Below are positions 25,341-43,079 of a DNA stretch of 64,000 bases, in pieces. The notes below the pieces were generated by a model. It made no database searches, was not told the origin of the DNA, and worked only from the letters and a program-made list of their open reading frames with translations. The stretch spans positions 207,501 through 271,500 of the forward strand of contig CAUJNA010000857.1 of the NCBI GenBank assembly GCA_963377175.1, in the 5' to 3' direction. This DNA comes from Effrenium voratum. Its lineage: Eukaryota > Sar > Dinophyceae > Suessiales > Symbiodiniaceae. Numbering within the stretch: the first letter of the stretch is position 1; each line of letters begins with the position of its first letter. A program made the translations under genes and the position numbers.

Positions 25341-25475
25341 TCAGGTCACGCCTTTTTCCACGACAAACACCTAGAGCTAAACCTAAGAACGCATGACTGC
25401 ATGATCGCAGCGGGTTGGGCATATGTTCAAAGCACATGCCCCCTCGCCTAGCCAGCGCCAGCTGCTTCAGCCAGC

Positions 25476-25691
25476 TCAACGTAATAAGGAAACCTCTCTC
25501 ATGGCACTTTTCCAAGCGAACGCGCGTCTTTCCCAGTTTGCCTTGTTGCCTGCTTCAGGCTTTGGAGTGTCCGGCATGTCATCCGTCTTGCGCAACTTGT
25601 AGTAGATGTAATCCTCCGTCTTCCTTGTTCCTTCAATCATGCGAAGCCGCTTGGTCAAGTGATGCTCAGTAACTTCACCGCTGTGCGACAT
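25476..25691 (-). CDS. Histone stem-loop-binding-protein-like ORF, left arm
   Basis: The frame of 71 codons reads LTKRLRMIEGTRKTEDYIYY, then TPKP (residues 42-45), then ANWERRAFAWKSAM. SLBP RNA-binding domains have the same order: an R-x-K-Q-I...GK-T-x-x-Y helix, a TP-x-x turn, then R-x-W...W-x-x-x-L. The key aromatic and basic positions mostly match, though the domain is short and the first conserved helix is weak. If translated it would bind an RNA hairpin. The frame stops soon after the domain, at a GTTTCC donor-like site, so it may be one exon. It is repeated exactly in the right arm in opposite orientation. Confidence 0.45.
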   Translation of the reverse strand: MSHSGEVTEHHLTKRLRMIEGTRKTEDYIYYKLRKTDDMPDTPKPEAGNKANWERRAFAWKSAMREVSLLR

Positions 25692-26065
25692 GCAGGGCAG
25701 GAACTACAGAAGCCACTGTGTAAGCTAAGTAAGCTGCGCAAGCAAAAATAGCTGCAGGCAGGAAGGGAAGCGCTACGGGCCTGCTATTCCACAAAGGGAA
25801 AAGAAACAGTGGAGACAATTCTGTACTCTTGATGTTGTCATACCACAAATGGAGGAGAAGCAGTGGAGATCCATATTTTTGCTGGTTGTTTTAGTCATTG
25901 TCCATGTCATGGAAAACAGTGACAACTCGTACTTCTGACGCTTGTTGTTTCTGGCGTCACACGAACCGCGTTGAGTGATGTCTGTTATGAGGTTGCATGA
26001 GGGGAAAACATGCACCGACATGAGCCATGATGGACTGGTTGGGTAGGTGGGAAAGCGGTTGGGAT

Positions 26066-26142
26066 GGGAGTCCTCCTTTTGGGTTTCCCAGTCCGCCTTT
26101 GGTGCCTGGGAGTCCTCCTTTTGGGTTTCCCAGTCCGCCTTT
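26066..26142. repeat. Tandem 42-bp duplication at inner end of left arm
   Basis: The block GGGAGTCCTCCTTTTGGGTT... occurs twice with a 42-bp period and is mirrored at 41933-42009 in the right arm. A third partial CAGTCCGCC follows. Confidence 0.85.
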
Positions 26143-26407
26143 CCATCGCCCCAGTCCGCCTACCAGGCTGGTAGGCGGACTGCCGGCAGTCCTCCTTGCA
26201 AGCTCTAGTTTGCAAGCCTTGAACACCTGGACAAAACTCATACCAGGTAAACCCCCAAAACAATTGGCCGCCCTGGCCAACAAGTTCAAGGTGCTTCCAG
26301 ATTGGATGGTTTAAAGGGGGAGGGTTGAGCTTGGCTTGAATCGTCTGCAGCTGTTTGGCTTAGACTTCTGACATTCTGACATAGGTCCCTTTCAGCTTGT
26401 CAAGATC

Positions 26408-27379
26408 ATGCCTAAGCAATGGCGAACAGGCTCAAAAGAAGCGCCGCAAAGGGCGCAACGTGCTCTCAACTCAAGGGTGGCGACTGCAGACCAAGCGTTG
26501 GCTGTTGCAGCTGATGCAGGAAACAAGCACGCGTTGGCTGACGCAGCTGGCGCAGGGCGCAGAAGCAGAAAGAGATTAGTGCCAAAAGTTGCAGGTCAAA
26601 GCACGCATCAGAAGAATCAAGCTCCCAAGGCAAAGGGCGCGCTGGCTGCCGCAGCTGGCGCCAAAAGCAACAGGCGTCGCGTGACAATAAAGAAGAAGAA
26701 GAGCAAGAAGCAAACACAAAATAATATTAAAAAAAATGCCATTGGCCAGGCAGATCCTTTGGAAGGGCAGGCGTGGCAAGCGTGGCTTGCTCATGTGAAA
26801 AACAAGGGGCCAACATGGCTTTATGTGGCACTGACATGCAGTCATTTGCTTTGCTGTCGCATCACCGAAGTCCTGCGTTTGAAAGCCAAAGACTTTGATT
26901 TTGAACACAAGGTTGTTGCCATCTCTTCCCTGAAAGGGCAAGCAGCAATTACAAAGACAATGAGCTGTGCAGCCTTTTCCACCTTCAACCGCTTCAAAGA
27001 TGAGGGCATCAGTGTGCAACGTGTTCGGGGGTTTGGCTGTAGAGGCAGAATGAATGTGGGGGACAAATGGGAATGGCCACTGGAGCAGGATGGTCTGTTG
27101 TTCCCTGCTGACCGCTCAGATTCGAAGACGGCAGAAAGAAACAAAGACACTGTTTCAAAGGCCATTGCACGCAGTCGCAAGAGTTTCAACGCGCCTGCGG
27201 GTTGCCCAGTTCTGAAGGTGGCACAGATTAGATCCCACAGCGGCCGGCACCGTGCTATCAATGACATGAAGCAGCACGAAGTCAACAAAGAAGTGGGCAA
27301 AACCTTCGCCCGCATTGTGGATGACGAACTACGGCCGCATCTCTGCATCCCAGGCAGGAAAGGCCCTGGCTCGAAATAA
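26408..27379 (+). CDS. Tyrosine recombinase (integrase-like), apparently without its catalytic tyrosine
   Basis: The ATG at 26408 lies 233 bp inside the left arm; the product has 323 residues. The first 115 residues are low-complexity and basic, with three in-frame copies of the LA-x-AA motif. The catalytic domain begins about residue 120: LLCCRITEVLRLKAKDFDF carries the box-I Arg (R151), a beta-hairpin lysine follows (K176), and RSHSGRHRAINDM gives the H-x-x-R pair (H277, R280). Tyrosine recombinases need a C-terminal Tyr about 30 or more residues later. The frame instead ends ELRPHLCIPGRKGPGSK, so the last exon may be spliced on or the enzyme is dead. Related genes are numerous in Symbiodiniaceae and belong to the Crypton/DIRS-type recombinase world. 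The position, first gene inside the arm and reading inward, suits the mobility gene. Confidence 0.75.
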   Translation: MPKQWRTGSKEAPQRAQRALNSRVATADQALAVAADAGNKHALADAAGAGRRSRKRLVPKVAGQSTHQKNQAPKAKGALAAAAGAKSNRRRVTIKKKKSKKQTQNNIKKNAIGQADPLEGQAWQAWLAHVKNKGPTWLYVALTCSHLLCCRITEVLRLKAKDFDFEHKVVAISSLKGQAAITKTMSCAAFSTFNRFKDEGISVQRVRGFGCRGRMNVGDKWEWPLEQDGLLFPADRSDSKTAERNKDTVSKAIARSRKSFNAPAGCPVLKVAQIRSHSGRHRAINDMKQHEVNKEVGKTFARIVDDELRPHLCIPGRKGPGSK

Positions 27380-27828
27380 CAATCTTCAGAAGTTCTGGGA
27401 GGAAATGTACTCCTCAGTTTGACTGCCCTGGTTGATCAAAGCCACTGAGATGTCAGCGAGACGGATTTTAGAAATGCCCTCTCCTAAGTTTCACCCAAGT
27501 TTCTCCAAAGCAAGCTGGGCACTGAAAAAAAGCTTGGACAAGCAGCGGCACGACGTGCACTTTGTTGCATGATCCTTGAGCGCTGTTGAAGCTAGAATCA
27601 GAGAACACGTGTGAAACCGAATTGCTGGGAGCTTGGGGAACATTGAAAAGTATATTTCACCAAACAGCATGCATGGACTGCAAGTACATGTAAACACAAC
27701 AGGGTCCCTGGCATTCTGGAAACCATCATTGCACTCTTCCAGCGCAGCTCATGCACAAGCGATATCTTCACACCAGCTTGGCACAAGTACTGAGACTCAA
27801 CTTGGCTTTTGCAAGCTTGAATTGGATG
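27380..27828. other. Spacer between recombinase and methyltransferase
   Basis: The two genes converge (plus and minus), so this holds both 3' ends. Only short unconvincing frames are present. If the recombinase has a final exon with the catalytic Tyr it should lie here; none was recognised. Confidence 0.4.
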
Positions 27829-28890
27829 TCAACTCTTCACAGGCAAGCCCAAAGCTTTCAGAACTTCACGCAGGACCGCGGCATAGACCGGCACTGTCAT
27901 GGCATTTCCAGCCATTTTCCCCAAAGCTGGTCCGCTCACAACTTTGTCCTGGAAACACTTGTGGATTTTCGGGGACGCCCCCTGCAGCCGGAGCAGCTCA
28001 GGTATGCTGAGCTTGCGCATGCGAAGAGCTGACCAGTATCCCTGCTGACTACCACGCGAAGCCGTGATGCATGGGCAGCGCCCGTCCTGCCAAGCAGGCG
28101 TGCTGCCTCCCATGTCTAGAATCACATCTCCGAAGCTTTTTTTCTTCAGCAAACACTCCATCATACGTTCAACGTTTCTTCGGCAAGTGTTGTTGAGGCT
28201 CTGGAAATCCTGATCTGTGCCAGCTGCATCAGCCAGCACAGCATGAAGAGGCAAGACGCGAGGTAGCGGGCGTGGCCAACTGAACTTTCGAAGGCATTTG
28301 GATTTCTGCAGGCCCACAATGTATAAGCGGTCGCGGCTTTGGGGAAGGCCTCCATGAACTTGAGCCGAAAGTAGTGTCCAGTCGACCTTGTAGCTGGACT
28401 CGCCGATGCCTGCCAGGATGTTGATGAACTCCTGGAACGCCTCTGGAAAATCCGTTGCCATGGCTGGCACATTTTCCAATATAAATGCACTGGGCCTCGC
28501 GACCTCCAGGAAGGAAAGCACATGCAGGGCAACTGCCCCTCGAGCATCCTCCCAGCCCAGCTGCAACCCAGCCCTGCTGAAGGGCTGACATGGGAACCCG
28601 GATGTGTAAACGTCCACCCTTTCCTGGGGCACTTTTCGCTCAGTTATGTTTGCATAGATCTTCTCTGGTTTGAATGCATGTGCAATCAGCTTGCGGCAGG
28701 CAGGGTTCGAATCTGAAGCAAACAAATGGCGAACGGGCAACTGGGAAACAGCTTCTGCTGCCTGGGCTTCAGTGCACCAACCGCTGCAGTCTCCAGCTAT
28801 ATTCAAAGTAGAGTTTCCAGAAGCTGCCGCGGATCGCTTGCAAGAGGTGGCACTCAACGCCTCCCCACTCTCCCTGCACCGCTTAGGCAT
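27829..28890 (-). CDS. C5-cytosine DNA methyltransferase
   Basis: An ATG-initiated frame of 353 codons with the full set of C5-methyltransferase motifs in order: a SAM-binding opening LNIAGDCSGW (residues 29-38, variant of motif I), the catalytic GFPCQPFSRAG (Cys101), ENV (139-141), QSRDRLYIVG (184-193), RLQG (301-304) and GNAMTVPVYAAVL (328-340). It transfers a methyl group from SAM to cytosine in DNA. The length fits a stand-alone catalytic domain without regulatory domains, as in element-encoded enzymes; retrotransposon-borne C5 methyltransferases are known from Symbiodinium. It contains one private 15-nt motif, read LADAAG (219-224), in the segment where the target-recognition region begins. 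No stop or frameshift was seen, so it could be active. The substrate may be the element itself or host DNA; the sequence does not say. Confidence 0.92.
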   Translation of the reverse strand: MPKRCRESGEALSATSCKRSAAASGNSTLNIAGDCSGWCTEAQAAEAVSQLPVRHLFASDSNPACRKLIAHAFKPEKIYANITERKVPQERVDVYTSGFPCQPFSRAGLQLGWEDARGAVALHVLSFLEVARPSAFILENVPAMATDFPEAFQEFINILAGIGESSYKVDWTLLSAQVHGGLPQSRDRLYIVGLQKSKCLRKFSWPRPLPRVLPLHAVLADAAGTDQDFQSLNNTCRRNVERMMECLLKKKSFGDVILDMGGSTPAWQDGRCPCITASRGSQQGYWSALRMRKLSIPELLRLQGASPKIHKCFQDKVVSGPALGKMAGNAMTVPVYAAVLREVLKALGLPVKS

Positions 28891-29306
28891 GGCGATTGAT
28901 GAGGCGTCTCAAGCGTGTGTGAAACCAACAGTATCTGCAGTGGTGCAAATTGCCTACCAGTCCCTGCGCAAAACATGCCTATGATCTGGCAAAAATTCGG
29001 CCTCCTGATTCAATCGGACCGCTTGCGTGTTGAGAGTTCCAGCGCTCTGTGCAAATCTGAGCCTGCTTGGTTGACAACCAACACTGCATGCATGACAAGC
29101 AAAGTGGCAATGTGGCAATGACCAAGGATGCAAATTGACACCGTGCAGCGCGCGATTCTTCTTTTCTCACTGGCAGCGTTGCCTGGATGCCTCAAACAAA
29201 AGTTTCCGAAGCTTAGTTATAATCTTGGAACCCTGGCAGGGCCAAGCCAACATGCCCTGCAATATCTTCTAAGCCTCATTGATGCGCGACCACCTGCTGC
29301 AGCTGA
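28891..29306. other. Non-coding spacer
   Basis: No protein-like frame was seen. It includes the presumed promoter side of the minus-strand methyltransferase; no regulatory motif can be named. Confidence 0.4.
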
Positions 29307-29480
29307 TCACTGCCCGCCTTCTGCCTGCTGCTTCTTGATCTCTTGCAGCTTGCGATGGAACTCTAGCAGCGGCCCGCTGGCACTACTGGAGCCATCTTCA
29401 GTCTTATTCTCCTTGTCCTGCAATTGGGCGATTTCTAATTCCAGTCCATGAGTTTGCCAAGCAATGCCAAGCATCCCCGG
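29307..29480 (-). CDS. Short coiled-coil ORF or terminal exon
   Basis: Reading towards the TGA at 29307-29309, the frame ends with a charged, helical tail: LELEIAQLQDKENKTEDG, a small linker, then LLEFHRKLQEIKKQQ. An in-frame ATG lies near 29477. The composition is unlike a random frame, but no family is recognised. It lies downstream of the 507-codon gene on the same strand and may be an alternative or separate last exon. Confidence 0.35.
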   Translation of the reverse strand, partial: PGMLGIAWQTHGLELEIAQLQDKENKTEDGSSSASGPLLEFHRKLQEIKKQQAEGGQ

Positions 29481-29592
29481 CATCCATGACCTACCAAAAT
29501 CACTTCAACAAGGTTATTTTTTCGAACGTGGAACCACAAGAACAAAGACACTTTGGGACACATGGCCATTGAAGCTGCTTCCAAACATGAGT

Positions 29593-31116
29593 TTACTCAA
29601 GTGACTCAAACGATAGCAACAAGTCACCCATCTCCTCTGCAGAAGGCGGCGGAGAAGCCTCTGAAGCAGCGGGCTCTTGCTGCTTCTGCTTCCCTCGGCC
29701 TTTCCTTTTCCCCCCGACCCCTGCAGCTCCAGGCTGAGATGATGTCGTGCCTTGCTTGACGCTGGCCAGTTTTGGGTCATACATGGGATCCTTTTCATCA
29801 CACATGCTGGACATGACCTGTTCAATCAAGCGCAAGCGGACCTGCTCCAAATGAGGGGTGGATAGTGCGTATCCCAAGTAAGGGATGCGTGCTTTCGCGC
29901 AGGCAAAGGCCAGCACGCCATCCGAGCAAGCGAAATCCACCAGCGCGCACAGCTTGAAGTTATGAGTGATCTCCTGCCAGAATTTGAGAGGGCGAGCATG
30001 CCAGAACACTGGCTCCACAGTGTCAGCTGTCTTTCGCTTAACTCCCCTTCCGGCATTGTCATCGCCTTGGGCAACACCTCCCACGGCTTTGCGCCAGGTG
30101 CCATGGATCTCATGCTTGGCAGAGCATGGCAGCTGCCAGGCCAAGCCAAAGTTGGGCATCACAATGTCTCCAATTTTTGTGCCGAAGTTGGTTCCGCTAA
30201 AGTGAATGCGCCGCAAACATGGTAAGCCCATGGAAGCAAGGTCACGTCCGCTGACCACTCTCATCTCCTCTGACACATCAAAGACCTGGTTGGACCTCAC
30301 GCATCCACGCCGCTCCCTAAGGCTGTCTTCATCATGGCACAGAACAATTCGATGTGAGTATTTATCAACAGGCTTGCCATCCGCATCCACAAACGCCTGC
30401 ATCAGCTTGCTCATATTGCCGGTGTGGCCACCGTCGAAGCAGAAGAAGAAATCATGAGCTGATAGCTGGACAGTTGGGTGACACGGCGAGCGATATTCCA
30501 ACAGGAGCTGCATTGTGGACTTCACCGTCTCACCGTTCAAGGGCGGCAGTCGCAGGTGAGGACTTGTGACTGTCTCTCCCAGTTGGCATGGGTCCCAAAC
30601 AAAGCCGATGTACTTCTCACCATCTGCCCCTGTTGCCCTCATAGCAGGGCTCTTCGCCCACAGAGCCTTCTGCTCCTTCTCCGAGGAAGTCCACACTGCC
30701 AAGGTGATGTTAGCATCAATCAGTCGCTGCGCCTTTGTGAAAGCAGCATCAACATGCTCGGACTGTTCCTGCGTCAGCTGTTGCTTCAGCTCGGCCAGGA
30801 ACTGATCAGAAACAACCTTGCGAGCCGAGTGCTTGTCTGCCTGCTTATTGGCAGAAACGCCAGCTGCATCAGCCAGCGTTGCTGTCGCAGCCTCTCCAGG
30901 CACCGTTGATTGCTTCAATTTCTCTAGGGCGGCCTTAAGCTCCTTGACTGGCATTTCCAAGCTGCCCTTCTCCAGCACGTCTGCGACAGGAAGTGAACGG
31001 CGAATAGAGGACATCAAAGTCTCGTCATGCTTGGTCTTGTAGACAAGGTCCTGAAGCCAAAGCTTATCAACAAACAATACACAAATCACTTTGAACCTGG
31101 TGTTGCGTTGAAGCAA
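29593..31116 (-). CDS. Unknown protein with methyltransferase-like Rossmann segment
   Basis: The open frame has 507 codons, but its upstream end is not an ATG. A splice acceptor (TTTGGCTTCAG) near 31050 probably starts the exon at DLVYKTKHDETLM. Notable parts: a helical region with the private motif read LADAAG (residues about 81-86), FFFCFDGGHTGN near the middle, PVFWHARPLKFWQEI, and LVDFACSDGVLAFACAKARI. The last resembles the SAM-binding strand-loop-helix of DNA or RNA methyltransferases (D-x-x-x-x-D-G-x-L). The C-terminal end is K/G/Q-rich and disordered. I recall similar 'FW..RP..FWQE' proteins being frequent in Symbiodiniaceae, but no function is established. Catalytic motifs beyond the SAM loop were not identified. 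Confidence 0.6.
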   Translation of the reverse strand: MLQRNTRFKVICVLFVDKLWLQDLVYKTKHDETLMSSIRRSLPVADVLEKGSLEMPVKELKAALEKLKQSTVPGEAATATLADAAGVSANKQADKHSARKVVSDQFLAELKQQLTQEQSEHVDAAFTKAQRLIDANITLAVWTSSEKEQKALWAKSPAMRATGADGEKYIGFVWDPCQLGETVTSPHLRLPPLNGETVKSTMQLLLEYRSPCHPTVQLSAHDFFFCFDGGHTGNMSKLMQAFVDADGKPVDKYSHRIVLCHDEDSLRERRGCVRSNQVFDVSEEMRVVSGRDLASMGLPCLRRIHFSGTNFGTKIGDIVMPNFGLAWQLPCSAKHEIHGTWRKAVGGVAQGDDNAGRGVKRKTADTVEPVFWHARPLKFWQEITHNFKLCALVDFACSDGVLAFACAKARIPYLGYALSTPHLEQVRLRLIEQVMSSMCDEKDPMYDPKLASVKQGTTSSQPGAAGVGGKRKGRGKQKQQEPAASEASPPPSAEEMGDLLLSFESLE

Positions 31117-31276
31117 ACACAGTTCTCCTCGGTGAGAGTGAACATGCTGTCAGCAGCCATGGACCACCCAGCGCGCCAAGCCCAGGCACCAGCCGTGGTA
31201 GCCGTCTCAGCTTGATTCTTGGCAACCTGGGGCATGCGACAGCTAAGTCGTATCATGTGTGGGGCCATCCGTGTTA

Positions 31277-32722
31277 TCAAAGTTTAACTAACAGCCTCAA
31301 CACTTGAAACGCAAACCAGGCCGCTTGATCTCCAGCACCTTCAGCAGCATCATCTTCATGCACATGCGCTCGGTAGCTGTTGCAGCTGCTCAAAACATCG
31401 CGAACGCCTGTCTTCTCTTCTGTTGTCAGGCATGAAGGGCCCATGATTTCATCCAGGAGGAACTGCAAGCATTTCTTCTTGTAAAGCAACAAATCCAAGT
31501 AACCTTTCCCCTGATCGTCTCTGCGCTTGCCCAGCAACATGCGGACTGTCACGTCTTCATGCTTAAGATTGTCCGCAACATGCTGGTCATGCATCATTGT
31601 GAAACACCACTCAGTCTCTGCCGGCGTGCTGGCTTTCACAATTACAGCGTGCATCTTGTGAAGAGTGTTGAAAATGGAGTTGGGCTGGAACTCCTCCTCA
31701 GCCAGCACCACTTGCTGCACAGTGGCTTTGTGAAGCGCTTTGTCCCACAGATCGTATGCTGTCTTCACCCAGTTTTCACTCACTGGTTCACTGTTCTCTG
31801 CCATGTTGAGCTTCTCTGAGTAAAGCTGCTCCATAGTCTCTGCAGAGATTGCTTTTCCGCTTTGACCCCGGCGGTTAATGATTTCAAAAACACGCTGAAC
31901 AGCAGTTCTTGCGAGCTTGGCTTTCTGGGAGTTGTCCTCCCTCAGCTGCAAGGCCTTCCACTCAAGGTCCTCCAAGCGAGCAACCTTGACAAACAAGCAG
32001 GGCGCAATAATCATGTGCCTTTTCCAAGCTTCACGCCAGCTGCTGCAGCCAGCGTCTTCGCAACTTTCTGCAACTTTGGCCATAAACGCGATCAATAACT
32101 CTGTGGGGGATACGTGCATCCAAGTCCCTTTGGGCCCAACAGTTCCTTCGTCAATGCTGCTTTGAAGCACTGGCACTTGCAAGTGCAGGTCTGCGAAAAC
32201 GCATGAAGCGACAACTGGGTCTTTGAAGAAATGGCCTTTCATGCTCTCGATGCAAGCTGTGGACATTGGGACATTAGCAGTTGGGGTGTAAAAAGGATCC
32301 AGCCAGCGAATGTTGATGGCTGCCATGTACTGCCCGGCATTCTGAAGTGAGTCCAAGCATTCCTTTTCGTTAAAGGGTCGCATGATGCCACCTTCCGCTG
32401 CTGATGTTGGAGGCAACAAGCGGGCTGTGTCTTCAAAATCTGCATGATGGAACACCTTCTCCATGTGCTCCCTGTGTTGCAGCCAAATGTTTGCATTCAC
32501 CCCGCCTGCCGAACATAACAAGATGCATGCTGGCATGGAAGCACGCGCTCCAAAAAGCAAAGCAAGCCAAACCCAACCCCTCATGTGTTGCAGGCCTGCT
32601 GGTGCAGAAATGCCCTCTGGGAGCGGCGCAGCGATGGAAGCACGGGCTTTTGGTTTGGCCTTGCCCTTCGCCTTGGCCTTTGGCGGGGGCTCAGGCCCCT
32701 CCACACGAGCGCGCTTGCCCAT
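31277..32722 (-). CDS. Unknown 481-residue protein
   Basis: An ATG-to-TAA frame with a basic, K/A-rich start (KAKAKGKAKPKAR, probable nuclear signal), a hydrophobic segment around residues 50-70, and a long alpha-helical remainder with regularly placed W, C and M. No enzymatic motif is visible. It holds one copy of the private 15-nt motif (32037-32051), here read in another frame as AGCSSW instead of LA-x-AA, which shows that the DNA motif rather than the peptide is the repeated unit. It lies 160 bp upstream of the 507-codon frame on the same strand; whether they form one gene is unknown. Confidence 0.55.
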   Translation of the reverse strand: MGKRARVEGPEPPPKAKAKGKAKPKARASIAAPLPEGISAPAGLQHMRGWVWLALLFGARASMPACILLCSAGGVNANIWLQHREHMEKVFHHADFEDTARLLPPTSAAEGGIMRPFNEKECLDSLQNAGQYMAAINIRWLDPFYTPTANVPMSTACIESMKGHFFKDPVVASCVFADLHLQVPVLQSSIDEGTVGPKGTWMHVSPTELLIAFMAKVAESCEDAGCSSWREAWKRHMIIAPCLFVKVARLEDLEWKALQLREDNSQKAKLARTAVQRVFEIINRRGQSGKAISAETMEQLYSEKLNMAENSEPVSENWVKTAYDLWDKALHKATVQQVVLAEEEFQPNSIFNTLHKMHAVIVKASTPAETEWCFTMMHDQHVADNLKHEDVTVRMLLGKRRDDQGKGYLDLLLYKKKCLQFLLDEIMGPSCLTTEEKTGVRDVLSSCNSYRAHVHEDDAAEGAGDQAAWFAFQVLRLLVKL

Positions 32723-33294
32723 AGCTTTTCAGTTGGTGCTGTGAGGCAAAAAATGCTACAATGTTATCTGTGACAAGCTGGCGGTTTGAGTAAGTCAAGC
32801 CATCTCCTGAATAATATGCACGCATCGCGCTTTTTCTGCCCCCAGGTCATCGCAGCAAATAAACTGCCAAAAGCAAATTAATTGCACTGACTGGCGCTAA
32901 TGCGCATCACCCTGCTGATACATCGCAACCTCTTTGCCAATGACAAGCCCACACTCCTGCTCATGCTATCACAGTGCAACTTACTCGTTGGGCACATCTT
33001 GCGTTGTCAAACCAACATGTTTAGAACTGGCACCAGGACAGGGCCCAGTCTAAGTCTAAACAGCTCGAAAAAGGGAAGGCTTTAAATTTTGCATTGGCCT
33101 CACTCATCTGGGGGGAAGGAAGTGCACAAAACGAAGCCCTCACAAAACCGCGCAGAGGCAAGGTGGGGCATGAATCAAAATTGTTACAATGTCGCGCGGA
33201 TTGCGTGTGTGTGTGTGCGGCTGTCTGGTAGCGAAGGCCTGCAAGTTCACGCGCCCTGTCGGGGGAAATTGCGCGCTGCCATATTTAAAAGGGT
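32723..33294. other. Spacer without convincing genes
   Basis: Contains the presumed start region of the 481-residue gene and leads into the minisatellite. No protein-like frame or recognisable RNA gene was found. Confidence 0.4.
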
Positions 33295-33650: not shown

Positions 33651-33741
33651 GGAATCTTGAACTGTTGTTAAGGCAAACTGTTTCTTGGGTGGATTTGTGG
33701 GGACGCTGCATGGGGCAATGCTGCCCAGCAGCACTTGCGGA

Positions 33742-34249: not shown

Positions 34250-35182
34250 TCAATAGTTCGCACAAACACCAGTGCGGCACCTTCCGTGAGACAGCTTGCA
34301 AACAAAATCATGTGTCAAGCCACTGGAAAATGTAAGCCGATTAGGAATCTGAGGGCTGCCGAGCCCGCTGTACAGCTCAGATTCTGTCAAAAATAACATG
34401 TACAGCCTTTTGTTTTCAGACCTAGCTGCGCCGCAATCTGTGACAAGCTCGCTCAAGGCTTGCAGCTGCCACTTGCAGTCTGTGCGGCACAAAACTTGAT
34501 GAATGTGCGAGCACAGGTCAAGGTGCTCATTCATGAACGCAAAGCTGAAATGCACAAAACGCTTGATCGAGATTGCCTGGTGGAAAGCCACTGCAGCACC
34601 TGCAGCCCCTTTAGACAGAAGGTGTTCCTTTGTGATCATGGAAGCGCCCAGGAGCCCAGCTAGAAACCACACGACTTTAGGGGGGTCAGCAGGGTCTGCA
34701 ACCACAAATGCGTCAGCGTCAGCCATCTCTGTGACCAGGTCAGCGTTGACTTTGCAGCACTCCTCACGGGTAAGGGGCGCTACTGCGAACACCTGTTGCC
34801 TGCGTGACGGCTGCAAGGGTGGCTTGTTCGAGTGAAGAGCCTGCCGCTTCGCATCTGCTCGGCGGAGTTTTTGGTTGGCTGCCAGTGCATTCACATGCCC
34901 ATCGACAGCATGGATAAGATCATCCCTGATCTCGTCTGGGCTCAAGTGACCTGCGAGGGCAGCTTCAACCTTTGCAAGTTGCAGCTTCCGCTCATTGAAG
35001 GCAATTTCCTTGCATTGGGCTTCATTCAACTCAGTCCCTGGGTCAGCTGCATCAGCCAGCCCGTGTTGGCCCTTTGATGCAGCAGTTTCCACAATCAATC
35101 TAGACGCCGCCGACACGGTCTGGATGAAACCAGATTCTCCCTGACGCGCCTTACCGCAACACAGCCAACCCACAAGGACCTA
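34250..35182 (-). CDS. C-terminal exon of hAT-like gene (helical, unknown function)
   Basis: The frame probably starts at the acceptor TTGTTGTAG near 35182 rather than at an ATG, giving about 310 residues: VLVGWLCCGKARQGESGF, the private motif read LADAAD, a charged helix (EIRDDLIHAVDGHVNAL), a K/R-rich linker, and a C-terminal domain with hydrophobic strands (VVWFLAGLLGAS) and several Cys/His. No enzyme motif is seen. It directly follows the hAT-dimerisation-like exon on the same strand, separated by about 60 bp of likely intron, so it is taken as the 3' part of the same gene. Confidence 0.5.
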
Positions 35183-35212
35183 CAACAACGAAGAATAATA
35201 GTGAACTCGATC

Positions 35213-36262
35213 TTACAAACAACGTGCGCATGCGCGCGCGCGCTGATGCCAAGCCACCTTCTTTCGTGGAACTCCAGCATCGATGCGAACCGTTTTCCGC
35301 TGACGAGGGCGGCCAAAGTGCCTCACCCAAACCCGAATTGCAGCAGGGACGAGTTCTTCCTTCAAGTGGGGGGCGGTTTGCAGAACGATCACATTCTCCT
35401 CTCTGTCGAGAAACTCATCATTACATTGCCCTCCTCTTAGGGCCGATGTTTTCGAGAAGTTTCTCTCCACATCGCAGGTGGATGCAACCCATGCCCCGTA
35501 CCTAATGAGAACAATGGTCAACTCGTCCGCCGTGTTGCCCTTCCGACCTTTGCCAAGTCTGCTGATTGCTTCGCGCCAGCTGGCAATGGTAGTGCCCTTG
35601 CTTCGAGCAGAATGCTCTGCAGCATATGGCTCATGACGATGAAACTGCTCAATCAATCTTTGCTCACAAATGCCAAAAACCCGCGCTAGGCATGACAAGC
35701 CTTCATTCTGCCCTTCTGACCGCCTTTGGCCATGAAGGTCACTCCTTCCGCTCCGCCCACTGAGGGCGAACACATGGAAGGAATGCAAAATATCATGCTC
35801 AGGATATTCTGCAGCTATGACCTTCGAAGACACCTCAATGATAGGGCGCATCCTAGAAAAGCACTGGTCCACCACAGCTTGAGACACACCAGCTGCAGAC
35901 CCAAATGTCTTAACAAAGCCTGCTCGCAACACAAAAGTCCTTGGCCGCTTCAAAGTCTGCAAGGCCACCTTTGTAAAACCAGGAAAGTTCAAACAGGCTT
36001 TGTCGAGGAACAAGCTGCGCAACACTGTCTCCTGAGCCATGATGTCCTGTGGCAGCTCGGCTTCGTCGAGCTCTTCATCATCACAAATCCGCACAAGCCC
36101 TTGAATCTGCATGGCATAGTCTGCCAGCATTCCCAACTGCACAATCACTTCATCAGACAAGAACTCGAAAAGTTCCATGCAAGCGCGCCCTTCCGCGCAT
36201 GAGGCACCGCGCTGCATGACCACCTGAGCAGCTGTTGCCAAAGAAGCGTCCAGAGTAAGCAC
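35213..36262 (-). CDS. hAT-like transposase exon with C-terminal dimerisation motif
   Basis: The open frame of 349 codons lacks an ATG and likely begins at a splice acceptor. Most is helical; near residue 275 it reads RYGAWVASTCDVERNFSKT and then a charged helix NDEFLDREENVIVLQ. hAT transposases end in a dimerisation domain with the pattern 'P/V-S-(S/T)-x-x-x-E-R-x-F-S', followed by a helix with conserved leucines, which this fits. A degenerate copy of the 15-nt motif (read GSAAG) is present near 35856. The catalytic D-D-E residues could not be placed with confidence. It is part of a minus-strand gene reaching from about 37585 to 34250. Confidence 0.5.
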   Translation of the reverse strand: MLTLDASLATAAQVVMQRGASCAEGRACMELFEFLSDEVIVQLGMLADYAMQIQGLVRICDDEELDEAELPQDIMAQETVLRSLFLDKACLNFPGFTKVALQTLKRPRTFVLRAGFVKTFGSAAGVSQAVVDQCFSRMRPIIEVSSKVIAAEYPEHDILHSFHVFALSGRSGRSDLHGQRRSEGQNEGLSCLARVFGICEQRLIEQFHRHEPYAAEHSARSKGTTIASWREAISRLGKGRKGNTADELTIVLIRYGAWVASTCDVERNFSKTSALRGGQCNDEFLDREENVIVLQTAPHLKEELVPAAIRVWVRHFGRPRQRKTVRIDAGVPRKKVAWHQRARACARCL

Positions 36263-36359
36263 AAGGCGACCAAGAACCTTAGCAGTGGAGCTGTACCTCT
36301 GGGGGGCATAGCAGAAGTCCTGGGTAAGCCAAGCAAAGCATCAACAAAGGCAACAAACA

Positions 36360-36573
36360 AAACACTTGACCAAATCATGCACAAGCAGTCCTGGATACGC
36401 TCAGAAATGCGTGCGCCATCTTGACATCGTGCACGGTTATCAGCATACATTGTTTGGATCTTGGGGCTGTAAGATATCAACTTCGATATTGACTTGTCCT
36501 TCTCCACAAACTGGTGGATGACTGCTTTGACAAAGTCGTCTGTGTCCCAAGGACGTGAAAGGATCCTGGGCAA
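36360..36573 (-). CDS. Middle exon of hAT-like gene
   Basis: Within this frame the stretch RILSRPWDTDDFVKAVIHQF to about RISERIQDCLCMIWS is protein-like; the downstream remainder (towards 36145) is not and overlaps the next exon in another frame. It links the N-terminal frame (36794-37585) with the dimerisation exon. Exon edges are uncertain. Confidence 0.4.
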
Positions 36574-36793
36574 ATGTCACCAAAGAAACGCTGCGCCTTA
36601 TCATGGCAACTTGCTCCTAATGCGTTCTGTGTGGAGCAAAAGTGGTCAAAGCCGGACAGGTGGACAGCATACAAAGCAAGATTGGCCAAACACGTGCAGA
36701 GCACAACCGGTCAAACCTGGACAGGCGCTGACAAGGTCCTGTTGGCAGCGTGGGCCCTGTCCCGCGATACAGCCTGGCACAACTCAACCTACA

Positions 36794-37585
36794 TTAACAT
36801 GCCAACCATCTGATTTTCAAATAACGCCACTGGCCTTGACATTCGGGAAGCCTTGGCTCAGAACGTTCTTCATGCTGGGGGTTGTTGGCCCTGCTGAGAC
36901 CTGTAGCTGCCTCACGAATAGACAATTGTTCTGGAGATGCCCCGTCAGCGACCAAGTGTTCCACCTTGAGCAAAGCCGCTTCAAACTGTGTTTTGTCAAG
37001 AGCTTCTGCGATTTCAAGCCCAGCTGCAACAGCCAGGCCGCAAGCCCTGGGTGGGACTTCGTTGCGAAAGAATCGCTGGAAGCCTTGCATCAATGCAAGT
37101 CGAATGTCATCTGCTGTGCCTGTGGCCAACCGTTGTAATGACAGCAGGCCCTGCGTCACCTGGAGGCTTTTGTCTGCGCAACGAAACCGTATCAGCAGCC
37201 GGGTGCCACGCTTGTCAAAACTAAGGCTGATGCTCTCAGCCTGCGAGATGACTTTCTGCAAATGCCGCCGCTTTGCTGCGGCAAGGCACCACTGCATGTT
37301 CTTGAGTTTATCCCTTGCAGCCACTGGTACACCACTTATCCGGCAGGGTTTCCCCTGAATTGTCTCTCGCATGACTTCCTCCCAATCTTTGTTGGCTGGA
37401 CATGCTCCATGAAGTGTAGGGTCGGTTGCATTGGGGTCTGCGTTCACCAAACTCTCAGCCACAACATGAAGCTCCGAGGATGCGTGCTTCCGAAGTTTCC
37501 ACAGCGTGACAGTGGCATAGTTCATGGACATTTTGGCGAAATCTCCTGGCTGGAGCTTCAAGCTCTGCACATCAGGAACTTGCAC
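36794..37585 (-). CDS. N-terminal exon of hAT-like gene
   Basis: An ATG-initiated frame of 263 codons, helical and charged. The middle segment ISLSFDKRGTRLLIRFR resembles the strand pair around the first catalytic Asp of RNase-H-like transposases, where a 'S-x-S-F-D-x-R' start is common. It is followed by a helical block and a private motif copy read LAVAAG. The last ~60 residues become less protein-like, so the exon probably ends before the stop, near 36900. It lies upstream of the dimerisation-motif exon on the same strand. Identification as hAT rests mainly on that exon. Confidence 0.45.
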   Translation of the reverse strand: MQVPDVQSLKLQPGDFAKMSMNYATVTLWKLRKHASSELHVVAESLVNADPNATDPTLHGACPANKDWEEVMRETIQGKPCRISGVPVAARDKLKNMQWCLAAAKRRHLQKVISQAESISLSFDKRGTRLLIRFRCADKSLQVTQGLLSLQRLATGTADDIRLALMQGFQRFFRNEVPPRACGLAVAAGLEIAEALDKTQFEAALLKVEHLVADGASPEQLSIREAATGLSRANNPQHEERSEPRLPECQGQWRYLKIRWLAC

Positions 37586-38174
37586 TGCAACCTCAGATGA
37601 TGGATGGCGACAAATTTAAGAGGACACAGCCCAAACCCTCCCACCGCAATGCCTGAGAACATGAAACTGCTACAACCCACCGTCTGACAAAGAGCTGCAC
37701 ACCATAAGCAGCCGCACTTCCAAATTCCAGCCTGGTCCGACCAAACCTTCTGGAACCACTTGAACTCGTCCGAGTTGAGGAACTCCTGCGTGGCCAGTGC
37801 GAACCAAACAATTGGCCTGAACATCAATGGTTCCCTTAGCATTGCAGCTGAACTAATGTCTGAAACATAGACAGTGACAGTTTTCCATCAATGGTCTGAA
37901 ACAATGCAGGCGCTGGCTTTCTCTCTGCTGGCTTTGTCTCTGGAGGGAAGAGTTTCGAGCAACGCAAAAGATTCAATGGTGGCGAGCTGATGTACACGCA
38001 TGCGCCTGGCAAGACTTTGCATTCGATCAAATACACCCCTCAGATAGCAAGGGTTTGTTTCATGGCAAGACTTTGCATGTGCTCAAATAGATCTCTCAAC
38101 AGTAGCAATGTTTCGCTTCAGAGGTCTATCTAACAAAATGGCGCACGCATGCAGCTGGTTCAGCTAAAGGCGCA
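37586..38174. other. Spacer without convincing genes
   Basis: Only short frames without protein character. It includes the 3' side of the nucleotidyltransferase/hydrolase gene and the 5' side of the hAT-like gene. GGCAAGACTTTGCAT occurs twice (near 38007 and 38062) within a ~55-bp diverged repeat. Confidence 0.4.
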
Positions 38175-38660
38175 TCATCCAAAAAGGAAACGCCACACCT
38201 CATGTGAAAACGCCTGGAACTGCGCAGCTCGGCCCCAAAGGACATCTTGCACATCTTCATGCCCGCCATCCAGCGTAAGCACTTGATTGCTAACGCTAGA
38301 TGCCATCAGAGCTTGCGCGAAAAACGTTGTTGTCTCGGCAGGGCAGCACTTGTCACGTCTGCCATTGACCATGCAAATGCTTGTGTGGGATCGCGCGAGG
38401 CGCTCCAGGTCTTCCTTGGGCTCGGCTGGGTCCGGGTACCAGCCGCCCAAAACTGTTCGGTGGATCATGGCAGGCATGGCCCGGGTCCACACCTCTGCCC
38501 ACATGGCGCCCCTGGAAAAGCCCATCAAGCAAAGCTTTCGCTGGCGCCCAGCTGCAGCAGCCAGGCGCGCGACTGCCTCGCACCAGCCCTGCATCGCGGA
38601 TGGCGGACGTGCTTTCCATTTCTTGCCTGGCCAAAGAAGCCGAAACGCAACTACAAAAAC
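38175..38660 (-). CDS. Alpha/beta hydrolase C-terminal exon
   Basis: The frame is open to 38702, but a splice acceptor (GGCCAG or TTTGTAG, 38630-38665) probably starts the exon near GKKWKARPPSAMQGW. It carries the full triad layout of a serine hydrolase: LCLMGFSRGAMWAEVW with nucleophile Ser in G-F-S-R-G, MVNGRRDKCCP with the acid Asp, and LDGGHED with His. It ends RFLFG then a stop. The usual N-terminal strand with the oxyanion-hole segment is missing here and appears at the end of the upstream nucleotidyltransferase exon (LLIWLPGCD, residues about 515-523). The fold is that of carboxylesterases/acyl hydrolases; the substrate is unknown. One 15-nt motif is read LAAAAG just before the nucleophile strand. 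Confidence 0.7.
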   Translation of the reverse strand, partial: VFVVAFRLLWPGKKWKARPPSAMQGWCEAVARLAAAAGRQRKLCLMGFSRGAMWAEVWTRAMPAMIHRTVLGGWYPDPAEPKEDLERLARSHTSICMVNGRRDKCCPAETTTFFAQALMASSVSNQVLTLDGGHEDVQDVLWGRAAQFQAFSHEVWRFLFG

Positions 38661-38759
38661 AACCCCATTCTGCACAGCGTCATGCGGCATGCCCACGTGC
38701 AATGCAAGTCACAAAAAGAGAAAGGTAACGAAGGGTTTCGTGAAAGATAACCCGAAATT

Positions 38760-40549
38760 CTAATAAGCTGGCCCTCTTTGGGGTGGGGTCCTCTGTTCGA
38801 GATTTGGCCTAAGGATAGATACTGTAAAGCTACCTCTAAACACTGGAAAACTTACCCTTGCAAAAGCCTTACTACTTGTCATTGCCGAGATGCCTCTCTT
38901 GCCTCCGAGAGTCGGCGGCACTTGCGGGGTCAAGATGATGAGGTGGCACGGGAGGATCCCTTGAAAAACCCGGCTTGGCTTTGCAGTTCTCTGATCGCAG
39001 CCTGGAAGCCAAATCAGAAGCATCTCATCGCGCTCTGATGGGGCCATGGGCTCCACGACTGTCACTGTGTATGTCAGTGAGAACCACTGCCATGTGCCTC
39101 TCTCAAGTTGAATGGCAATGGGTGACTGGGCTTCTGGAGGCATTTGTGCTGGCAGCGGCTGCAAAGGCGTGACTGTGGGCTGGGCCAGGATCGATCGAAG
39201 CGCTTTCCCCTGCTGGTGCTTCATAGTCCACGCCATGCCGCGGATTCTGTCAAACCCTTGGGAATGCATCATCTTGTGTAGGCTCTGGATGCGCAAGCCC
39301 ACATACTGCTTGCATGAATTTGTGTAGTCCTGCGCCACAGCATGAAGGAGTTCTCGGGCTTCGCCCTGGATCCGACCGAGCGTCACCTGCGGCAGCTTTG
39401 GAAGCAAATTACGCCCATGGTGTACCAGCTCAATTGTCGGGCTCGACGTTTTGCTGCTGCGGGCAGCCACGGCGCCGCAAGGGCCGTTGGCCGGCATAAA
39501 CCGATGAGCTGTCACTGCTGAGCTGCACCACATTTGCAAAAGCCAGAGGAAGAGGTTGCCTGCCTTGCCCGGCCCTGCACTCTGCTCAGCCCTGCGCAGG
39601 AAGTCTAAGGATTTTGTCCCAGCTGCTTCAGCCAGGCCATGGTCCTCCTTGCTGTGGAGCAGCATGAGCGCGTTGATCAAGTTGGCATGGATCGCCTTGA
39701 TGTTGCGGCCAACGGACATGCCACGCGTGTCTCTGTGGTACAAAGCCTTGCAGCTCTTCCCCCAGTCAATGAACATTGCGCACGCAAATCGCTCTTCAGT
39801 AGAGATAGACCTCGCAAGGTTTGCCATGACCTGCGTGGATTGCATGATTTGCTCTTCCTTCTCTCCAAAAGTCAGATCCACGTGAAAGCCACACAGGTCC
39901 CACATGATGGACCATTTGCCCATCGCGTTGGTGACGTTCTGGAAGGGCCCGCCAGGCTGCTTTTTTGATTCTGCCTGCATCCAGTTGCAGACAGCAGTGA
40001 GCGCTTGCTCTCCGCTGGGGCCAGGGCCCGGCCTCATCAGCAACGCCGTGTCAGCATCGCTGAAGGGGCAGGTAATGCCGTGAGCCCGCGAGCCGAAAAG
40101 GAGCATCTTGAAGGGCCCAATGTTCGGGCAGCCAGTTTCCACCAGCGTCTGGATCACCAAGAGCAAGTCGCTCTTGGTGACCTCAAATTCTTTGTTGTAC
40201 GCCTCGAGCAAGTCGTGCATGGGCTGCCACGCAGCTGAATCCTGGTCCTGAGGGCCAGCTGCAACAGCCAGCCCTGGCGGCGGCGGTGGAGGCGGTGTAG
40301 GCGGCGGAGGCGGTGGCGCAGCCGGAGCAGCAGCTTGCTTCGGCTGCAGCGTCACTGGAATCCTTGACCCAGTCGCAGCCTGCAGTGAAGGCTGCTGCTT
40401 CGGCGCAGGCGCAGGGCGTGAAGGCTCCGGCGGCAAAGGTCTTGAAGGCTGCGTGGGCATTTGCTTGGGCTTGGGCTTGGGTGCAGCTGGACGCCAAGTG
40501 CCCCAGGATTCGTCGTCGTCCTCCTGCTCCTGAGTCTCCTGAGCCACTG
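38760..40549 (-). CDS. Nucleotidyltransferase (poly(A) polymerase/TUTase-like) exon, likely fused to the hydrolase
   Basis: A single open frame of about 600 codons. Residues 25-110 are P/A/Q-rich. The pol-beta-type nucleotidyltransferase core follows: MLLFGSRAHGITCPFSDADT contains the G-S motif (157-158) and the metal-binding D-x-D (169, 171), and CGFHVDLTFG supplies the third Asp (229). This is the pattern of poly(A)/poly(U) polymerases and related tRNA- or oligoadenylate-making enzymes. A helical domain follows, with two private motifs (LAVAAG 98-103 and LAEAAG 310-315). From about residue 512 a different fold starts: EMLLIWLPGCD...HLIILTPQVPP, resembling the first strands of an alpha/beta hydrolase. 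A GTAAGT donor at 38855-38850 (minus) marks a likely splice to the hydrolase exon. The upstream join is near CAGTG at 40545-40549. Confidence 0.75.
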
Positions 40550-40627
40550 TTTTGAAAGTCATGTTTTATCAACAATGACAAGCCAATGACATGTTTTATC
40601 AACAAACTTTCAGCCAAATGAAAAAAC
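40550..40627 (-). other. Probable short intron with an internal direct repeat
   Basis: The reading frame passes from the W/Q-rich exon to the nucleotidyltransferase exon only if about 77 bp is removed. Both candidate edges share CAGTG, so the exact cut is ambiguous. Inside are two copies of ATGTTTTATCAACAA (40561-40575, 40591-40605). A similar TTATCAACAAAC lies at about 31064 beside another suspected intron edge. Confidence 0.5.
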
Positions 40628-41535
40628 ACTGCCCCTGTCTCCTCTTCTGACTCAGATCCCCAGTCTGGCACAAATGCAGGATCAGCAGGGTCAACACCTC
40701 CAGGTTGAGGGCCAGCAGCAGGACCAGGAGCTGCAGCAGCCTCGTCAGGCGAGGACTCCACCTCTTCAGCTGCTGCATTGCCGTCAGCAGTGCGCTGGCG
40801 CGTCTTGCGGGCGTTCAAGTCCACATCCAGCAGATTCCGCTCTAGGATCGCGATGTCCTCGTCTGCGTCGGATTCCTCGTCGTGGTCGTGCTTGTCTCTG
40901 CGGATGATTTTGTGCGACTGCATGACACGGTCCAACCCATACTTGTACACATACCTCGAGTAGGGCGTGATGCTCAACTTCTGCAGGTAATACATCCATA
41001 TTACGGTTTGCATTACCTGTTCCACCTCCGTTTGCTCTAGGGATGGAACTGAGCTGCTTTCGGCGAAGCCCTTGGTTTCCCGTGCGTGGACATAGCTTGC
41101 CCATGATAGGTTCGTCTGCGCCCAAGACACCACATCAAAGCTTTCGCCGCTTTCCCTTGTTTCTCTCGCCTGCTGCCACATCAAGCGCAAGCAGCGCCTC
41201 TCATAGTTTTGAACTTGTTTTGCGTGGTTGGCCTTCCGCTTGTTTTTGGGCGGGCGAATGCGGACAGCTGCTTCAGCCATCCGCCTGTCATCCAGCCAGC
41301 TTTGGTGCTGGTCCTGCTGGCCTCTGTCATCATTAGCCCAGCTTTGGCCCCAGTCTTGGCCCCAGCTTTGTTGGCCCCATTGTTGGCTCCAGTCTTGGCT
41401 CCTCTGGCTCCAGCCTTGGCTCCAGCTGTCTTGGCGCCAGCTCTGCCAGTCTGAGCGTTTCCATGACATGGCGGCGACCCAGCTTGAGTCGCAAAAAGAC
41501 TGGAAGCAAGTGATTGTGCACAACTGACAGCTCAT
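40628..41535 (-). CDS. W/Q/S-rich N-terminal exon of the nucleotidyltransferase gene
   Basis: The ATG at 41533-41535 opens a frame with a short Cys-containing leader, then about 50 residues of WSQ/SWGQDW-type repeats, a basic stretch (RPPKNKRKANHAK), a helical domain containing RYVYKYGLDRVMQ, and an acidic tail (EESDADEDIAILE...SESEEE). The first 15-nt motif copy is read MAEAAV. A second ATG (MSWKRSDW) could be the true start. The frame continues past 40628 without protein character. Low-complexity W/Q and acidic regions suggest an RNA-processing protein; the enzyme domain is in the next exon. Confidence 0.6.
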
Positions 41536-41589
41536 GTCATGCGTGACATGCCACCCAAGCTAATGCAAGAGCAATGGGGCACAACAGCT

Positions 41590-41690
41590 GCTGCAAAGCC
41601 ACCACCTCCACCACCACAACCACCAACAACAACAACGACAACGACAACGACAACGACAAAGACAACCACGACAGCAAACACGACGGCAGC
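41590..41690. repeat. CAC/CAA-rich simple repeat
   Basis: About 100 bp of CCACCA and CAACGA trinucleotide-like repeat immediately upstream of the W/Q-rich exon; no gene. Confidence 0.8.
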
Positions 41691-41899
41691 AACCAGTCCT
41701 CCTTCACTGCGCATGTCTTCTTCTTCTTGTCCGCCATTCCGGCCAATTGGGCTGCGGGGCCCCGCGTGGCACCGCTTCATGCGTCGACATGCGGCAACGC
41801 AATGTGCCAAACCTTTACAACTCACAAACAACAACTGAAACACTGTCACAGCAAAATGGCGCCACAAAGGCTCCAAAACTACATGCAAAAACGCCGGCA

Positions 41900-43079
41900 C
41901 CTACCAGCCTGGTAGGCGGACTGGGGCGATGGAAAGGCGGACTGGGAAACCCAAAAGGAGGACTCCCAGGCACCAAAGGCGGACTGGGAAACCCAAAAGG
42001 AGGACTCCCATCCCAACCGCTTTCCCACCTACCCAACCAGTCCATCATGGCTCATGTCGGTGCATGTTTTCCCCTCATGCAACCTCATAACAGACATCAC
42101 TCAACGCGGTTCGTGTGACGCCAGAAACAATAAGCGTCAGAAGTACGAGTTGTCACTGTTTTTCATGACATGGACAATGACTAAAACAACCAGCAAAAAT
42201 ATGGATCTCCACTGCTTCTCCTCCATTTGTGGTATGACAACATCAAGAGTACAGAATTGTCTCCACTGTTTCTTTTCCCTTTGTGGAATAGCAGGCCCGT
42301 AGCGCTTCCCTTCCTGCCTGCAGCTATTTTTGCTTGCGCAGCTTACTTAGCTTACACAGTGGCTTCTGTAGTTCCTGCCCTGCATGTCGCACAGCGGTGA
42401 AGTTACTGAGCATCACTTGACCAAGCGGCTTCGCATGATTGAAGGAACAAGGAAGACGGAGGATTACATCTACTACAAGTTGCGCAAGACGGATGACATG
42501 CCGGACACTCCAAAGCCTGAAGCAGGCAACAAGGCAAACTGGGAAAGACGCGCGTTCGCTTGGAAAAGTGCCATGAGAGAGGTTTCCTTATTACGTTGAG
42601 CTGGCTGAAGCAGCTGGCGCTGGCTAGGCGAGGGGGCATGTGCTTTGAACATATGCCCAACCCGCTGCGATCATGCAGTCATGCGTTCTTAGGTTTAGCT
42701 CTAGGTGTTTGTCGTGGAAAAAGGCGTGACCTGATGATAAATTATAATGACATGATAAATGTAAATCTTATAACTGTTGTATGATATGATACAGTGTTAT
42801 ATGATGTTATATGAAACAAAATGATGTGATATGTTGTAATAATATGATACGATATGGTATGAAATGATGCGACATGTTTGGAGACATGTTTGGACATGGT
42901 GTGGAGTGGTGGTATGAAATGGTAGTATGATCTGATGACATATTATCATGTGACATGGTTAAGCTTTATGATAAGGCAAAGTAAGATATCGTGGTATCAT
43001 TGGATAGACAACCAGAAAAAGGAGCAACCCGAGAAGCCCAGAAAGCCAGCAACCTGGCAACCAGCTAACCACACCCCAG
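41900..43079 (-). repeat. Right inverted repeat arm (1,180 bp)
   Basis: Reverse complement of 24996-26175. Similarity stops at 41899/26176. It carries the 15-nt motif at 42602-42616, the SLBP-like ORF, the AT-rich tract and the 42-bp tandem units. It ends with ...CACACCCCAG, directly joined to the truncated Tpt1-like gene. Confidence 0.95.
42384..42599 (+). CDS. Histone stem-loop-binding-protein-like ORF, right arm
   Basis: Same 71-residue translation as the left-arm ORF at 25476-25691, in the opposite orientation. Just after the stop, another frame reads VELAEAAGAG, so a splice or frameshift would join the LAEAAG peptide to this domain as in the interior genes. Confidence 0.45.
   Translation: MSHSGEVTEHHLTKRLRMIEGTRKTEDYIYYKLRKTDDMPDTPKPEAGNKANWERRAFAWKSAMREVSLLR

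Follow-up and report, generated by a model that had tools for sequence, protein, structure and literature searches.

A covarying RNA hairpin carried by almost all genes of an 18-kb tyrosine-recombinase element of Effrenium voratum, with a small SLBP-like protein as its possible reader

We analysed a stretch of 64,000 nucleotides from the dinoflagellate Effrenium voratum, hereafter the window (C857:207501-271500 of the 1.156-Gb assembly to which all genome-wide counts refer; positions are numbered from its first letter). It contains an 18.1-kb unit (24995-43080) that encodes a tyrosine recombinase, a C-5 cytosine methyltransferase and several open reading frames (ORFs) without known family. The unit is bounded by terminal inverted repeats of 1181 nt, with three mismatches between them and no strand assigned (24995..26175 and 41900..43080). 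A short motif scattered through the genes of this unit is an RNA hairpin present in nearly every one of them. We consider it likely that a mobile element here tags its own mRNAs with this 23-nt hairpin and also encodes the reader, a small protein resembling SLBP, the histone hairpin-binding protein, which would bind the tag and act through it.

The Motif Is the Core of a Hairpin with Covarying Outer Stems

A sequence-only reading of the window had reported 14 strict matches to the motif, and we recovered every one of them where it had placed it; all lie inside the unit, none elsewhere in the 64 kb, and no shuffled sequence out of 100 attains 14. The matches at 25459 and 42602 are one site present in both arms of the inverted repeat, which leaves 13 distinct copies. 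On the coding strand each copy reads TGGCTGNNGCAGCTG, in which G3-C13, C4-G12, T5-A11 and G6-C10 close a three-base loop and the wobbles T1·G15 and G2·T14 extend the stem, for six fixed pairs in all, including two G·U in tandem. The four bases flanking the motif on either side vary between copies and are still complementary (e.g., GTGC/GCAC, ACGC/GCGT, GGGC/GCCC, and CGGA/TCCG): over the 13 distinct copies 49 of 52 outer pairs form, against 31.6 ± 3.0 when the right flanks are reshuffled among copies (0/20000 as high), and pairing falls to background from the fifth outer pair onward. The GCTGGC seen earlier on both sides of longer copies is indeed there, as a partial view of these complementary stems.

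Covariation points the same way, with a score of 0.353 versus 0.096 ± 0.028 in shuffles (0/500 as high); standard pairs account for 97.7% of the total, and the pairing signal is lost when the partner is slid by 1-3 columns. A covariance model made from the copies gives all 14 scores of 33-38 bits and finds no other match above 20 bits in the window, the next non-overlapping match (16.2 bits; 31370-31392, plus strand, antisense to ORF D) being a weaker look-alike. The loop is NNG, in which the N positions are never G: the two free letters include no G among 26 in the unit, versus 12 among 50 at isolated genomic sites. As RNA, the 23 nt would form a hairpin in which the four outermost pairs vary, the U·G/G·U wobble step and the four Watson-Crick pairs inside them are fixed, and the loop is NNG. 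Scanning the window for exact 11-mers, a search blind to gapped motifs, revealed no other private word in the unit, and no family of the Rfam library matches the window at gathering score.

All Copies Lie on the Sense Strand and Are Constrained as Nucleotides

The 14 copies are all sense to an ORF, in a set of ORFs that we chose ourselves, even though the coding strand switches from minus in the left arm to plus in the recombinase, back to minus in the remaining genes and again to plus in the right arm. Three lie in the plus-strand recombinase gene (26408..27379), at 26495..26517 (loop TTG), 26531..26553 (ACG) and 26639..26661 (CCG). On the minus strand, the methyltransferase gene (27829..28890) carries one at 28217..28239 (ATG, outer stem GTGC/GCAC) and is followed by ORF C (29593..31116), with a copy at 30857..30879 (ATG, ACGC/GCGT); ORF D (31277..32722), at 32033..32055 (CAG, in a different reading frame); ORF E (34250..35173), at 35040..35062 (ATG, outer stem with one C·A mismatch); ORF F (36794..37585), at 37017..37039 (TTG); ORF G (38175..38702), at 38545..38567 (CTG, CGCC/GGCG); ORF H (38760..40562), with a first copy at 40252..40274 (TTG, GGGC/GCCC) and a second at 39616..39638 (AAG, one G·A mismatch); and ORF I (40183..41535), at 41261..41283 (AAG, CGGA/TCCG), all of them again on the minus strand. 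The copy shared by the arms (25455..25477, minus, and 42598..42620, plus; loop AAG, one outer position unpaired) covers the stop codon of a 71-aa ORF. These assignments are based on pairing, covariation and the covariance model, with folding in addition for ORF E, and on motif, pairing and covariance model in the arms.

Folding energies of the sense strand range from -9.4 to -16.1 kcal/mol; the antisense strand is weaker in 12 of 13 cases and ties in one. Where the sequence-only reading gave the peptide as mostly LA(D/E/V/A)AA, we find L/M-A-x-A-A in 11 of the 13 distinct copies, and the ORF D copy (32037) is, as it said, in another frame; the arm copies, which it had placed outside a clear frame, do have a frame context, in that they overlap the stop codon of the 71-aa ORF. 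In the 11 in-frame copies the alanine codons are always GCT, GCA, GCT, for which the unit's codon usage gives a chance of 0.033 per copy. The fixed alanine codons, the frame change and the stop-codon overlap together place the constraint at the level of nucleotides and not of the peptide, which bears out the earlier view that the nucleotide sequence is the unit of recurrence and belongs to the element. On the other hand, variable yet complementary flanks and a 14/14 sense orientation are what RNA pairing predicts, and they argue against the double-stranded DNA recognition site, for the methyltransferase or the recombinase, that had also been suggested.

The Motif Arose in Place in the Methyltransferase

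In-frame insertion, as in Rickettsia palindromic elements, had been raised as a possible origin of the motif, with alignment of the host proteins as the way to reveal a clean insertion. In the methyltransferase there is no gap at LADAAG relative to P0005-P0008 and P0010, five of the six nearest homologues, and the outer stems, as described above, covary. The sixth (P0009) and more distant rows, in which the length varies after the motif, were left uncounted, and P0004 was omitted because it is, or is nearly identical to, the copy in the unit itself; P0006 and P0008 show a one-residue gap a few residues ahead of the motif. Given the absence of a gap in five of the six nearest homologues, the alignment indicates that the methyltransferase motif arose through substitution in pre-existing sequence. 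Homologues of ORF C lack the motif, and this region is too variable to tell insertion from substitution. Two of them contain a GLADTAEP/GLAATAEP stretch at the protein level, which could encode the same hairpin with a different loop.

Copies Elsewhere in the Genome

The bare 13-base pattern occurs 395 times genome-wide, versus 15 times for the reversed pattern. The motif is therefore confined to the unit within the window, as first noticed, but as a word it is not strictly private to the unit; concentration in the unit is a property of the hairpin and not of the bare pattern. Our site-level analysis covers 100 of the 395 matches, those listed, among which 24 sit in three other copies of the unit. 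At the 25 distinct isolated sites read among the other matches listed, the outer positions pair in 46 of 100 cases versus 37.9 ± 4.5 after reshuffling, and most of these sites for this reason look like background. In near copies of the unit, 207 hairpin sites show no substitution, where some 6.4 would be expected from the 300 distinct ones counted over 9676 other sites; this comparison covers 9 of the 13 hairpins, and its set included the window's own stretch.

Several short copies (C180:706202-711064, C424, C2612, C2778, C3082 and C3214) retain, besides both arms and the SLBP-like ORF in them (incomplete in C3214), parts of the recombinase and ORF E regions, and are probably internally deleted derivatives. 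A relative of ORF I on contig C85, 38-49% identical, bears the hairpin, its outer stem perfectly paired, at a different position in the gene. In the stretches read of other recombinase families (L047, L053, L055-L058 and L062, the last nearly half N) no repeated private hairpin was found, and the motif is absent from L047-L060. A different dispersed palindrome, GGTGCTGNNNAAGCGC, occurs at L078 and L079 (C2133:30401-41400) in many copies, partly tandem and many of them outside long ORFs; considered as a hairpin of the same kind, the L078 palindrome was rejected because its flanks do not pair.

An SLBP-like Protein Is Encoded in Each Arm

Each arm encodes one copy of the 71-aa product MSHSGEV...SLLR (25476..25691, minus, and 42384..42599, plus), known from translation and homology. 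Its sole Pfam match, with E-values allowed up to 5, is PF15247, the RNA-binding domain of SLBP (E 0.032, positions 3-65 of 70). The same genome contains seven near-identical ORFs of 75-79 aa that exceed the PF15247 cut-off at 31.9 bits, and the arm ORF is 43% identical to these (genome-search E 1.7e-9 to 1.2e-8). For five of the six genomic PF15247 hits compared with the arm ORF, local scores are 69-125 versus 21-24 for shuffled sequences, with 0/2000 as high; the best is L081, itself above the cut-off, at 125 versus 23.9 ± 4.7 (tblastn E 2.3e-14 in a 2.6-kb subject). Alignment also reveals a PxTP segment and an aromatic-x6-W spacing common to the arm ORF and the PDB chains 4l8r (W-x6-W) and 4tux (F-x6-W). 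Across 14 copies of the unit, internally deleted copies included, 26 arm ORFs are free of internal stops, and 23 of them are full-length matches; several recombinase copies contain stops. Because the arm ORF taken alone is below the 27-bit cut-off of the family, we call its product SLBP-like on these comparisons and not a certified PF15247 member. On another contig, C989, SLBP-like matches below the cut-off occur at 27353, 52497 and 77383, about 25 kb apart; a PF15247 match of 24 bits, also under the cut-off, is near a recombinase relative, and the first match is near the relative at 29249-29896. The three may be arms of a further element. Beyond the sequence-only reading, the present analysis adds the fold, the orientation rule and the SLBP-like arm gene.

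Other Features of the Unit and Its Surroundings

The recombinase and the methyltransferase are identified by Pfam matches (PF00589 and PF00145, respectively), the latter also by homologues. ORF C, not assigned to a known family, and ORF D are fused in one Effrenium voratum gene model, a near-identical homologue of ORF C (97% over 82% of the query) in which ORF D forms the upstream portion; the model begins downstream of ORF D's hairpin. ORFs E and F, without known family, were called genes by length, and ORF I, likewise without family, from the ORF listing and its diverged relative on C85. ORF G is alpha/beta hydrolase-like, with a DLH match barely above its cut-off, and ORF H is a possible nucleotidyltransferase, with a GS...DAD signature recognized by eye and a Polbeta match below cut-off. 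ORF E2 (35213..36262, minus), taken from the ORF listing, has neither a hairpin of its own nor a Pfam match; we take its C-terminus, judged by eye, to be hAT-like. Support for strand beyond length exists for the recombinase, the methyltransferase, ORFs C and D, ORFs G and H (weak), ORF I (through its C85 relative) and the arm ORF. No relative of ORF C, of the methyltransferase or of the recombinase turned up among the viral contigs scanned, a PDB sequence search gave no match for ORFs H, C or E2, and structure models were uninformative (mean pLDDT 37 for ORF H and 34 for ORF C).

Directly upstream of the recombinase gene lies a long perfect palindrome, AGTCCGCC...GGCGGACT (26152-26182). The same palindrome occurs in three of six loci with 41-47% identical recombinases (L047:1425, L053:1342 and L055:1360) and not in L056-L058, and is a candidate recombination site. 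By eye, no target-site duplication was seen at the unit edges. Two near-identical direct duplications flank the unit (11863-17754/19102-24995 and 47818-53621/58216-64000), and the second copy of the former stops at the unit's left edge. An ORF adjoining the unit (43065-44165, minus) has a weak, below-cut-off match to the RNA 2'-phosphotransferase Tpt1/KptA family. A 28-bp minisatellite lies between ORFs D and E (33292-33650) and contains no hairpin of the unit's kind.

A Probable Tag on the Element's Own Transcripts

In our reading, selection keeps the hairpin on the sense strand of nearly all genes of this 18-kb tyrosine-recombinase element. Provided that each ORF is transcribed, the hairpin would mark the element's own transcripts. 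Its reader would most likely be the small SLBP-like protein, encoded once per arm and proposed for this role from its homology. Bound to the tag, the reader would set the joint fate of all element mRNAs, be it stability, export or translation, and the hairpin across the reader's own stop codon would place the reader under the same control. The possible nucleotidyltransferase of ORF H might even point to mRNA tailing, by analogy with the PRE element of hepatitis B virus (HBV) and TENT4 (PMC11055085), which is a guess given a Polbeta match under cut-off.

A number of observations weigh against this interpretation. As to the hairpin, one of five covariation measures, the number of pairs changed on both sides, is attained by 53 of 500 shuffles, and one outer position is unpaired in three distinct copies. 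The near copies are related and not independent, which makes the conservation test soft; the hairpin of 26535 is missing from four short copies, and the copy on C3307 lacks that of ORF I. The strand of ORFs E and F is based on ORF length only, and ORF E2 would have a hairpin only if spliced to ORF F. The ORF I relative on C85 carries the hairpin, and no other gene of the unit was found within 10 kb of it. Two deep relatives keep the unit's gene order at 25-49% identity and show no hairpin in the 13 and 11 kb read; neither of their contigs is among the 47 arm-ORF matches. Because these two lack it, the hairpin system appears, on this small sample, to be a trait of the unit's lineage and not of all such elements.

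As to the arm protein, it scores 14.7 bits where the curated PF15247 cut-off is 27, and two variants from other copies give 13.5 bits and no match (a shuffled sequence gives none either). Similarity to human and Drosophila SLBP is modest (41 and 40 versus about 24, with 9 and 36 of 2000 shuffles as high), and a PDB sequence search returned no chain matching the arm ORF directly. The sixth genomic PF15247 hit, L085, is unlike the arm ORF, its match to the family being a chance hit, and no repeated hairpin was found in the 2.6 kb read next to another SLBP-like ORF. The absence of an Rfam match also means that the unit's hairpin is not a histone stem-loop.

Alternative Explanations

The hairpin could be a genuine RNA tag that is read by a host RNA-binding protein or nuclease, in host control or autoregulation, while the arm protein does something else. 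The fold, the covariation and the sense-strand stability need no arm protein, the Pfam match of the arm ORF is weak, and RRM proteins are described as abundant in dinoflagellates (PMC12787238). We nevertheless regard a host reader as unlikely, since Pfam links the arm ORF to a hairpin-binding domain and to nothing else, and ORFs above the cut-off of that domain are its homologues. Moreover, a tag serving host silencing alone should decay, and the flanks of the isolated genomic sites read pair little above the shuffled level.

It is much less probable that the copies act as DNA, in the form of cruciforms or folded single strands that serve the tyrosine recombinase or replication, like integron attC sites, which are located between cassettes and function as single-strand DNA. 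Integron attC sites also combine a fixed core with a variable, complementary stem; the element encodes a tyrosine recombinase, and two copies are located in the arms. Unlike attC sites, however, the hairpins of the unit lie inside genes, and their orientation tracks the ORFs and not the polarity of the element, flipping between left arm, recombinase, remaining genes and right arm. The fixed G·U pairs favour sense-strand RNA, and the palindrome by the recombinase gene, also present in three of six related loci, is a better candidate for a recombination site.

Rickettsia palindromic elements are short palindromes within many ORFs that arise by insertion. Mobile inserts of this kind, landed in frame, would account for a length of 15 nt, divisible by three, and for copies in unrelated proteins, and their likeness to the unit ends at the short palindromic sequence in many ORFs. 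The ungapped methyltransferase alignment and the covarying outer bases make such an origin highly improbable, as do the lack of degenerate copies in the window, the different frame of the ORF D copy and the overlap of the arm copies with a stop codon; one repeat with unrelated flanks is not what we see, the flanks being complementary at 49 of 52 pairs. That the conserved feature is a peptide with a protein-level role (e.g., a protease or sorting site) has next to nothing to commend it beyond L/M-A-x-A-A in 11 of 13 distinct copies, because third codon positions are fixed, flank covariation crosses codons, the ORF D copy uses a different frame and the arm copies extend over the stop codon.

Comparison with Known Systems and Implications

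The closest parallel to an element-encoded tag and reader is the histone 3' stem-loop with SLBP (PF15247; PDB 4l8r and 4tux), in which a short fixed-core hairpin on a set of co-regulated mRNAs is served by a small dedicated reader domain, to which the unit's arm ORF is related. Both stems share a 5'-GGCU with AGC opposite, and a feature of the unit to be set beside this system is that one of its hairpins overlaps a stop codon. The histone stem-loop has a four-base loop and a 6-bp stem, whereas the unit's hairpin has a three-base loop, 10 bp and a U·G/G·U step, and lies mainly within coding sequence; no histone gene was seen in the unit. Dispersed RNA packaging signals (e.g., in STNV) likewise consist of many related hairpins per genome with one encoded reader, as we propose for the unit, but they lie on one genomic RNA strand, whereas the orientation of the unit's hairpins follows each ORF. 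In HBV, the PRE hairpin SL-alpha is described as present on almost all transcripts, recruiting ZCCHC14-TENT4 and setting RNA fate (PMC11055085). It resembles the unit's hairpin in being common to almost all transcripts of one genetic parasite, and the possible nucleotidyltransferase of the unit, with its match below cut-off, recalls TENT4; it differs in its CNGGN pentaloop, its host reader and its single shared region instead of a hairpin per gene.

We know of no DNA transposon with a covarying RNA hairpin in nearly every gene and an adjacent gene for a hairpin-binding domain. Our literature search, which judged titles and the openings of abstracts and in which subscription journals were mostly outside scope, found no description of such an element.

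For dinoflagellates, one review states that evidence for the stem-loop in histone mRNAs is absent (PMC6723414), and if these mRNAs lack it, the hairpin-binding domain would be free for another job. We tentatively raise the possibility, for which the case is still short of even, that dinoflagellate mobile elements have adopted the SLBP domain, no longer used by the host for histone mRNAs, as a self-recognition code, in several families, each of which would combine a small SLBP protein with a coding-sequence hairpin private to it for trans control of its own transcripts. If true, this would amount to a trans-acting mark of self versus non-self for mobile-element transcripts and provide a ready-made orthogonal hairpin-protein pair, and it would reveal the fate of the SLBP domain in a lineage whose histone mRNAs reportedly have no stem-loop.

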